A stretch of 64,000 nucleotides of DNA. It comes from Aurantimicrobium minutum. Lineage in GTDB: Bacteria; Actinomycetota; Actinomycetes; Actinomycetales; Microbacteriaceae. The stretch lies in NCBI RefSeq assembly GCF_029893825.1, contig NZ_JARXXV010000001.1, forward strand, positions 620,001-684,000, read 5' to 3'. Shown piece after piece: positions 2,306-38,603 of the stretch; the first letter of the stretch is position 1; the number at the start of each line of letters is the position of its first letter. The notes under the pieces were generated by a model. It saw only the letters and a list, made by a program, of their open reading frames with translations. It was not told the origin of the DNA and made no database searches. The position numbers were made by a program, and so were the translations under genes.

Positions 2306-3505
2306 CTAGATCGTGGTTCCAGCTTTGCGAGCACGCTCTACAGCCTCAGGAAGTGCAGCAAAGAATTCTTCAAGTTCTGCTTCAGTGGTGCTGTGCCCGA
2401 GGGAGATGCGCAAAGCAGATGATGCACCGCGTTCGTCGTGCCCCATGGCTAGCAACACATGAGAAGGTTGGGCAACGCCTGCCTGGCAGGCAGATCCTGT
2501 GGAAACAGAGACCCCCATGGCATCGAGCAAGAACAACAGTGAATCGCTTTGACATCCGGGGAAGGTGAAGTTCACGTTGTTATCCAGACGATTCACGGGA
2601 TCACCACTGAGCACAGCATCGGGGACAAGTTCCTGAATCTTCGCAATAGTGACATCGCGCAGAGCTGTGAGGCGTTCATGTTCGTGTGCGAAGGCTTTGT
2701 CCACCATCAGGGCCGCGATAGCCATTGAGGAAATGGCTGGCGCATCGAGTGTTCCGCTGCGCAGTCCGCGTTGTTGCCCACCGCCATGAATTAATGGCTC
2801 GAGTTGGGCTTCGCGCGACACAATAAGTGCACCAACCCCTGGCACAGAGCCAAACTTATGCCCGGAAATGCTCATGGCTACCAGCCCCGCATTTCCGGAA
2901 GCACCCGATGTATCTCTGAGCTGCGCAAAGTTGATGGGGATGTGTCCGAATGCCGAGACGGCATCAATGTGAAGCGGCACAGAGTGTTCTGCGGCGAGCG
3001 CGGCTATCTCTGCCACGGGCTGAATAGTGCCAACCTCATTGTTTGCCCAAAGCATGGTGGTCAATGCCACGGCTTTTCCAGCACGTTCGAGGGTGTCACG
3101 ATATTCCTGAACATTGATGCGGCCCAGGTTGTCTACTGGCACCCATTCCAGAACGGCACCTTCATGTTGCTGAAGCCATAATACAGTGTCGAGGGTTGCG
3201 TGGTGTTCCGCTTCGGGCACAACGATGCGATTGCGCTTGGAATCTTTCTCAACCGCTGCACGGAAGAGTCCAATCAGCGCCAGGTTGATGGACTCTGTGC
3301 CACCTGAAGTGAAGATGACCTCTATGGGCTGACAACCCAGAACAGTTGCCAGGTATTCACGGGCATCTTCAACCAGTGCCCTGGCTGCCTGACCGTGGCG
3401 GTGGACAGAAGAAGGATTACCTACATGCTCTAAAGCATCAGTGAACGCCTTGGTTGCTTCAGGGCGCACAGGAGTAGACGCTGCGTGATCGAGGTAAGCA
3501 ACCAC
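2306..3505 (-). CDS. Cysteine desulfurase (NifS/IscS class, PLP-dependent)
   Basis: This enzyme removes sulfur from L-cysteine and passes it on as a persulfide. The 399-residue fold-type I aminotransferase shows HHATLDT around residues 101-107, the PLP lysine K217 in SISGHKFG, and the active-site cysteine C340 in VSTGSACQAG. The GTG start at 3505 follows a good Shine-Dalgarno (AAGGAG, 7 nt upstream). It is co-directional with mnmA, so the context suggests a dedicated donor for tRNA thiolation. There is no adjacent IscU or SufU, which argues against a primary Fe-S assembly role but does not exclude it. Confidence 0.93.
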   Translation of the reverse strand: MVAYLDHAASTPVRPEATKAFTDALEHVGNPSSVHRHGQAARALVEDAREYLATVLGCQPIEVIFTSGGTESINLALIGLFRAAVEKDSKRNRIVVPEAEHHATLDTVLWLQQHEGAVLEWVPVDNLGRINVQEYRDTLERAGKAVALTTMLWANNEVGTIQPVAEIAALAAEHSVPLHIDAVSAFGHIPINFAQLRDTSGASGNAGLVAMSISGHKFGSVPGVGALIVSREAQLEPLIHGGGQQRGLRSGTLDAPAISSMAIAALMVDKAFAHEHERLTALRDVTIAKIQELVPDAVLSGDPVNRLDNNVNFTFPGCQSDSLLFLLDAMGVSVSTGSACQAGVAQPSHVLLAMGHDERGASSALRISLGHSTTEAELEEFFAALPEAVERARKAGTTI

Positions 3506-37535: not shown

Positions 37536-38060
37536 CTAGAGCGTGACGAGAGTGTGAATATCACGCCCTGCAAGTCTTTCACGACCGCCAAGAGCTTCCA
37601 GTTCAAGCACCACTGCAATACCGGCAACTTCCCAGCCAGCACGCTCAATCAAAGACACCGAGGCACCGATGGTGCCCCCAGTGGCCAGTACGTCATCGAG
37701 GACGAGAACTCGAGAACCAGCAGGTAAAGATGCGGGGTTCACCTCGAGGGTGGCAGAGCCATATTCCAAGTCATAGGTTTCACCGATGATGTCGCCTGGA
37801 AGCTTTCCACCCTTGCGAATAGGAAGAACACCAACACCGCCATCAATGGCTGCGGCAGCAGCCAGTAGGAATCCACGGGCTTCCAATCCAGCAACGGCAT
37901 CGAACTTTCCCACGAAAGGCTCAATCAAGCCATCCACAACGGCCCGAAAGGATTCACCGTGAGCAAAAACCGGGGTTAAGTCGCGAAAGAGAATGCCCTC
38001 GGAGGGGAAGTTAGGAACCGTCAGCATGCGCCGCATGACAACATCGGTAGCGTTACTCAT
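37536..38060 (-). CDS. apt: Adenine phosphoribosyltransferase
   Basis: Apt salvages adenine to AMP with PRPP. The 174-residue type-I PRTase has the PRPP loop VLVLDDVLATGGT and the N-terminal hood FPSEGILFRDLTPVF. ARGFLLA and PIRKGGKLPG are also as expected. The ATG is 6 nt after TAGGCT, so the mRNA is predicted to be leaderless. The promoter is part of a perfect palindrome shared with the divergent DUF6328 gene. Confidence 0.96.
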   Translation of the reverse strand: MSNATDVVMRRMLTVPNFPSEGILFRDLTPVFAHGESFRAVVDGLIEPFVGKFDAVAGLEARGFLLAAAAAIDGGVGVLPIRKGGKLPGDIIGETYDLEYGSATLEVNPASLPAGSRVLVLDDVLATGGTIGASVSLIERAGWEVAGIAVVLELEALGGRERLAGRDIHTLVTL

Positions 38061-38066
38061 AATTCG

Positions 38067-38080
38067 AGCCTAGCTAGGCT
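38067..38080. promoter_or_regulatory. Perfect palindrome carrying divergent -10 boxes (apt and DUF6328)
   Basis: AGCCTAGCTAGGCT is a 14-bp perfect palindrome in the 27-bp gap between two divergent genes. TAGGCT on the minus strand ends 6 nt before the apt ATG. TAGGCT on the plus strand ends 7 nt before the DUF6328 ATG. Both mRNAs would be leaderless, and their promoter cores overlap. Confidence 0.55.
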
Positions 38081-38087
38081 TGAGGCT

Positions 38088-38585
38088 ATGCCGAACACCG
38101 CGATAGAAAATGTTGATCCTGAGCTGAGCGAATCTGAGTATGCACGTCTCGAGCGTCGCTGGAATGAGCAGCTCAGTGAACTGCGTGTAACGCAGGCAGG
38201 AACGCAGATCATGATGGGCTTTTTACTCACCCTGAGCTTCCAACCTGCATTCCAAACCATCAGTGTGGTGGAGCGCAACCTATACCTCAGCTTGGTGATC
38301 GCAGCGACTTTGGCAACTGTTCTTGCCATTGCACCGGTCAGTCTTCACAGAACACTCTTCGCACGCCCCGGCGCCAAAATAAGAGTCGTCTCCATCACCC
38401 AGGTTTTCTTGCGCCTCACCCTGATTTTGGTGGGCATCGTTCTCTCTGGAACGGTTGCCCTCATTTTCAACGTGGTGCTGGGCAATACTGCCAGCCTGAT
38501 TGGTGGAGTGTGCGCCGCAGTAGGCATTGCAGCAGTGTGGTTAGCACTACCACTTGGCGTGCGACGCACACTCAAGAAGAACTAG
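38088..38585 (+). CDS. DUF6328 membrane protein
   Basis: A 165-residue protein with a charged N-terminal 45 residues (RLERRWNEQLSELRVTQAGTQIMMGFL), then four membrane helices of about 20 residues each. The RVTQAGTQ signature is typical of the family, which is largely actinobacterial and uncharacterised. The segment VSLHRTLFARPGAK lies in the loop between helices 2 and 3. It ends with a Lys-rich tail (RRTLKKN). The function is unknown. Confidence 0.82.
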   Translation: MPNTAIENVDPELSESEYARLERRWNEQLSELRVTQAGTQIMMGFLLTLSFQPAFQTISVVERNLYLSLVIAATLATVLAIAPVSLHRTLFARPGAKIRVVSITQVFLRLTLILVGIVLSGTVALIFNVVLGNTASLIGGVCAAVGIAAVWLALPLGVRRTLKKN

Positions 38586-38603
38586 TTCTTTCTTAAGAAC
38601 TAG
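38582..38603. terminator. Bidirectional terminator hairpin
   Basis: CTAGTTCTT and AAGAACTAG form a perfect 9-bp stem with a 4-nt loop. It includes the stop codons of both converging genes (DUF6328 and aspA). No long T-run. Confidence 0.6.

Follow-up and report, generated by a model that had tools for sequence, protein, structure and literature searches.

Why should the short gap between two divergent genes of Aurantimicrobium minutum be filled largely by a perfect palindrome, and is this palindrome one regulatory element or two promoters placed end to end? The locus lies in a 64,000-nucleotide stretch of the genome, which we call the window and to which the coordinates refer unless another locus is named. 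On the minus strand, apt (37536..38060), predicted to be leaderless, encodes an adenine phosphoribosyltransferase; in the profile comparison its ORF scored above the cut-offs of NCBIfam NF002636 (198.5 bits, cut-off 125) and NF002634 and below the cut-off of TIGR01090. On the plus strand, the DUF6328 gene (38088..38585), also predicted to be leaderless, encodes a membrane protein of unknown function (PF19853, Pfam, 148.1 bits) with hydrophobic stretches at approximately residues 63-88, 98-135 and 134-159. The apt ATG is on the complement at 38060 and the DUF6328 ATG is at 38088, leaving 27 bp between them (38061..38087). Within this gap lies the palindrome AGCCTAGCTAGGCT (38067..38080), which ends in TAGGCT when read from either side and has a single exact copy in the window's genome. 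These two hexamers are the predicted -10 boxes of apt (38067..38072, minus strand, 6 nt to the ATG) and of DUF6328 (38075..38080, plus strand, 7 nt to the ATG). The sequence confirmed the original prediction of a 14-bp perfect palindrome in the gap with TAGGCT on each strand at these distances, and the same palindrome is present in A. minutum MWH-Mo2.

The probability of finding a perfect 14-bp palindrome anywhere within one given 27-bp gap is approximately 0.0009. Because 40 such palindromes occur in 384 kb of the window's genome, compared with 23 expected, symmetry by itself is little proof. Start-like triplets at 5-8 nt on both sides were found for only two of the 40, the apt/DUF6328 site and one other. 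What exceeds chance at this gap is that both hexamers stand at the distance typical of leaderless genes and that they are conserved.

To define that distance, TANNNT was counted before candidate ATG/GTG starts of ORFs in the window's genome (358 ORFs in 384 kb). The profile peaked at spacers of 6 nt (49) and 7 nt (26), in comparison with approximately 6.2 at each other offset, and the same peak appeared in six further sampled genomes (G004, G007 and four from other genera). A TANNNT peak 6-7 nt before starts is known to mark leaderless genes. Earlier work puts TANNNT roughly 12 bp ahead of the start and gives an average of 19.2% leaderless genes in Actinobacteria (PMC3160421); in M. tuberculosis, TANNNT was reported with no accompanying -35 motif (PMC3898074). 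The leaderless fractions in our samples, 17-22% in five small genomes and 10% in two large ones, are rough because the gene set was mechanical (greedy long ORFs). TAGGCT was the commonest leaderless -10 hexamer, accounting for 28 of 236 in the three Aurantimicrobium samples.

Both genes of the pair fit this signature, with apt at the peak of the profile and DUF6328 at its second value. A comparison of three species by eye revealed no conserved purine-rich Shine-Dalgarno core in either spacer. The DUF6328 spacer TGAGGCT contains GAGG, which counts against two leaderless promoters, though it lies near the ATG and is not conserved. From the -10 spacing, transcription of apt is predicted to start at the A of its ATG (38060, minus strand), and that of DUF6328 at the A of its ATG or the preceding base (38088, plus strand). 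The -35 consensus is TTGACA. Its best matches in the two directions were 3/6 and 4/6, within the random range, and leaderless promoters as a set scored no better than random positions. The proposal that the -35 element of each promoter lies inside the coding region of the other gene thus found no support: because neither direction shows a recognisable -35 hexamer, such a placement is a matter of geometry only.

Given these observations, the palindrome is very probably a minimal divergent promoter consisting of two independent -10 boxes, back to back and 2 bp apart, and it looks palindromic because the hexamer is the same for both genes and the GC separating the two copies is self-complementary. 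The housekeeping sigma factor would presumably read TAGGCT on either strand. Each polymerase would then melt its own -10 box, opening the DNA toward its own gene, and transcription would begin at or beside the A of the start codon, producing two leaderless mRNAs.

The distribution of the pair within the genus offers a view of how the two boxes evolve. DUF6328 is present in three of the eight Aurantimicrobium genomes (G000, G004 and G007), and no match was found at E 0.001 in the other five. All 14 positions of the palindrome are identical in the three genomes that have DUF6328, and the spacers on both sides vary, so the check on conservation came out in its favour. Together with the TANNNT profile, this conservation in relatives keeping both genes supports the original view that both genes are leaderless and that the palindrome contains their divergent -10 boxes. 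The apt gene has TANNNT 6 nt before its ATG in seven of the eight genomes. In G007, the start codon of apt is a GTG at 8 nt, outside the TANNNT peak, a point against the two-box reading; for this reason the G007 pair is absent from the 6-7 nt counts. The five genomes lacking DUF6328 carry TACGCT (three) or TACTCT (two) 6 nt before apt.

We then compared the conservation of the palindrome with that of ordinary -10 boxes. Among 201 three-way orthologs, 33 leaderless genes were common to three species (the apt/DUF6328 locus included); the hexamer was identical in 14 of the 33, and the full 14 bp up to and including the hexamer were identical in two, the apt/DUF6328 locus and one side of another divergent pair. 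The conservation of the palindrome is thus at the top of the range, yet it exceeds what two ordinary -10 boxes would give by only a small margin. In a tree of apt and part of fumC, the genomes with DUF6328 were scattered, and three changes were needed, at least two of them forced by well-supported branches; this would imply repeated loss, gain or exchange of DUF6328 at this place.

Two observations concern the other end of DUF6328. A hairpin with a 9-bp stem and a 4-nt loop (CTAGTTCTT/AAGAACTAG; window 38582-38603; -10.9 kcal/mol, z -3.0) extends across both stop codons where DUF6328 and fumC converge, and it could act as a two-way terminator. In another genus (locus L007 in G014), fumC ends at a distance of approximately 1.2 kb from a DUF6328 gene convergent to it, a hint that the two were neighbors before Aurantimicrobium arose.

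The same 14-mer also occurs between unrelated genes. It was found in five of 299 genomes of the family, always in a divergent gap: three belong to Aurantimicrobium and two to another genus, in which it separates a divergent M13 peptidase gene and a MATE transporter gene with either start 6 nt away. The peptidase and MATE genes are divergent in all eight genomes of this second genus. Four of the eight have a 26-bp gap with the palindrome and both starts 6 nt off; in the other four the gap is 66, 87, 649 or 719 bp, the palindrome is absent, and a separate TANNNT stands 6-8 nt before the start of each gene. In the order of these gap lengths, the peptidase boxes are TAGGCT, TAGGGT, TAGGCT and TAGTCT, and the MATE boxes are TACGCT, TACGCT, TAGGCT and TACGCT. 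The 649-bp gap contains a Fic/DOC-family ORF, and TAGGCT is nevertheless retained at both genes, so that the two arms exist there as free-standing boxes. Each arm follows its own gene, and this therefore fits two promoters, contrary to one operator.

Fic/DOC-like ORFs were seen in the peptidase/MATE gap at two loci (L112 and L114; PF02661 was tested in L114), where four sister genomes have 26 bp; a putative toxin-antitoxin module would thus have been inserted into, or lost from, a divergent promoter. In L114 (approximately 2995-3012), the Fic/DOC ORF appears to end with the TAG that opens the peptidase -10 box TAGGCT.

At the level of the order, one further genome (G378) among 396 carried the exact 14-mer, besides the window's own. 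Here an acyltransferase gene, with a GTG 7 nt away, is divergent from an acetyl xylan esterase gene, and no start codon was found 3-14 nt from the palindrome on the esterase arm. One arm of this third locus thus speaks against reading the palindrome as a pair of boxes.

To ask whether a 2-bp separation is common, gaps of <35 bp were surveyed in seven samples of 384-400 kb. Adjacent divergent ORF pairs with TANNNT 6-7 nt before the start on both sides numbered 4 of 67 in G000 and ranged from 0 of 84 to 12 of 65 elsewhere. Divergent leaderless genes with so short a gap between them turned up repeatedly, at box-to-box distances of -7, -2 (in three genera), 2, 4, 6 and 7, and the 2-bp spacing was found in the sampled stretches at the apt/DUF6328 locus alone (G000 and G004). 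The other gaps comprised three at -2, one each at -7, 4 and 6, and a dapE/dapD-like pair at 7; a 12-bp gap at a distance of -14 was taken as spurious. Because the other gaps show -14, -7, -2, 4, 6 and 7, an optimum at 2 bp was not evident in the sampled stretches. The predicted starts are 18 bp apart in the -7 case and 23-24 bp apart in the -2 cases, near two of the preferred start distances given for E. coli bidirectional promoters in PMC12825309. In G017, two predicted leaderless genes share a 17-bp gap in which the -10 boxes overlap by five bases and the starts are 18 bp apart, a leaderless version of the geometry most common among E. coli bidirectional promoters.

The dapE/dapD-like pair, outside the window (L063:3376-3425; G000 contig C1, approximately 727383-727415), is a second divergent leaderless pair. 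It consists of an M20 peptidase gene (probably dapE) and the tetrahydrodipicolinate succinyltransferase gene (dapD), separated by 31-32 bp in the three Aurantimicrobium samples, and a core, TTTATCGCCGGTAA, common to all three lies between unlike -10 boxes. Like apt/DUF6328, it has TANNNT 6-7 nt from both starts, in the same three genomes. Unlike apt/DUF6328, its boxes are 7 bp apart, its hexamers differ, and its two genes probably belong to one pathway.

Could the symmetry itself be what selection maintains? Identical paired -10 boxes would make a strand-symmetric promoter at which both directions compete evenly. The recurrence of the 14-mer with unrelated gene pairs in two genera favors this reading. 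So does the choice of hexamer: the apt -10 box is TAGGCT wherever DUF6328 is present (three congeners) and never where it is absent (five), and both peptidase/MATE arms are TAGGCT in all four short-gap genomes compared with one of the four with longer gaps. However, TAGGCT is simply the commonest hexamer, the independent cases are few, and among the other gaps of <35 bp identical hexamers on both strands were found only in G017, at -2. We consider selection for symmetry improbable at this locus. A broader version, in which a symmetric identical -10 pair is a recurring, selected module of leaderless Actinobacteria, reached independently with different gene pairs and evenly balancing two mRNAs through its symmetry, is somewhat less doubtful but still unlikely; if true, its 26-27-bp divergent control region would be among the smallest seen.

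A second alternative is that only one arm is a real promoter box and the other a chance by-product of its symmetry. Such a case is found before a single leaderless EamA gene, where a near-palindrome serving that gene only keeps TAGGCT in seven of seven genomes; the mirror arm occurs in three forms and, in four of the seven, includes the stop codon of the gene upstream. In an eighth genome, G004, no such near-palindrome was found in the examined locus, which may not cover the EamA gene. At apt/DUF6328, however, both arms are conserved, and both stand 6-7 nt from a start in G000 and G004. Each gene also has evidence of its own box: in 12 of 27 DUF6328 loci outside the genus, a candidate start is preceded by TANNNT at 6-7 nt, and the five congeners without DUF6328 still carry a -10 box before apt. 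A single functional box is therefore very improbable.

The EamA loci gave two further observations. In L043 and L044, the -10 region before EamA also carries the stop codon of the preceding gene. The idea that near-copies of the palindrome mark nucleotide salvage genes, suggested by a phosphoribosyltransferase gene following EamA, was rejected: TAGGCT there is the leaderless -10 box of EamA, and the other arm varies.

The weakest alternative is an operator, in which AGCCTAGCTAGGCT would be the binding site of a dimeric transcription factor acting on both genes. Fourteen base pairs is a usual length for an operator, and a perfect palindrome identical in three species, with identical 14-mers at two other gene pairs, would suit one. 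The genomic copies showed no excess, however: each genome carrying the 14-mer has only one exact copy, and sites with up to two mismatches, as forward counts summed over the eight Aurantimicrobium genomes, numbered 26 (three exact), the same as the 26 of the reversed control. Neither adjoining gene encodes a regulator, and the palindrome sits at -10 distance on both sides. Nor is the palindrome kept as a unit on rearrangement; it is split in the four of eight genomes in which the peptidase and MATE starts stand apart, each with its own box, and its mirror arm drifts at EamA. Copy number and this splitting make an operator or regulon the least probable of the readings, and the palindrome is most likely two -10 boxes.

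If the gap is a pair of -10 boxes, the two promoters should be occupied by one polymerase at a time. RNA polymerase has a footprint of approximately 75 bp; this exclusive occupancy follows from its size, because it spans the whole gap in either orientation. The original prediction went further and proposed that purine salvage and the membrane protein are thereby linked in expression, a claim for which we found no support. Outside the genus, apt was near DUF6328 at none of 27 loci within flanks of approximately 1.5 kb (30 such genomes had a match). The pairing is dispensable within the genus as well, since the five of eight congeners that do without DUF6328 keep a TANNNT box before apt alone. 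In E. coli, none of the five bidirectional promoters examined in PMC12825309 was strong enough at basal levels for competition, which appeared only on activation. Because the effect of exclusion depends on promoter strength, which was weak in the E. coli cases, a link between purine salvage and DUF6328 expression is possible at most.

How does this arrangement compare with those already described? Our search retrieved no paper on DUF6328, and a search for Aurantimicrobium gave no paper containing the name among the matches listed; for leaderless genes with divergent or overlapping promoters, the titles and abstract beginnings disclosed none on this exact arrangement. The nearest relatives in form are the bidirectional promoters of Warman, Grainger and colleagues (PMC12825309, PMC10268837), which in the portions consulted share with the apt/DUF6328 gap a short symmetric sequence, divergent transcripts and an exclusive orientation of the polymerase. 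There, starts 7-25 bp apart, most commonly 18 bp, are served by reciprocally overlapping -10 elements (PMC10268837, in the same portions). In contrast, the predicted apt/DUF6328 starts are 28 bp apart (27 bp in G004), the hexamers are separated by 2 bp rather than shared or overlapping, and the genes are predicted to be leaderless, a word absent from the accessible text of PMC10268837. The apt/DUF6328 pair should thus resemble the Warman promoters sterically, yet it falls outside their definition because its starts are 28 bp apart and its boxes do not overlap.

A second comparison is with M. tuberculosis, in which closely juxtaposed divergent promoters are common and a divergent leaderless pair, prpD and Rv1129c, has been described (Cortes et al. 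2013, PMC3898074, in the sections available). As at apt/DUF6328, divergent neighbors there give leaderless mRNAs from TANNNT -10 boxes with no -35 consensus; unlike at apt/DUF6328, these sections give no perfect palindrome or gap length for prpD/Rv1129c. The apt/DUF6328 locus is therefore a conserved, unusually compact divergent leaderless promoter pair of a kind already described in outline. To that kind it adds an exactly symmetric sequence that recurs with unrelated genes, as well as natural controls with the boxes apart. Leaderless translation compresses divergent control: with no leader and no visible -35 element, 26-27 bp serve two genes. A symmetric promoter of this kind is a clean natural test of polymerase competition, and the related genomes with separate boxes provide its controls.
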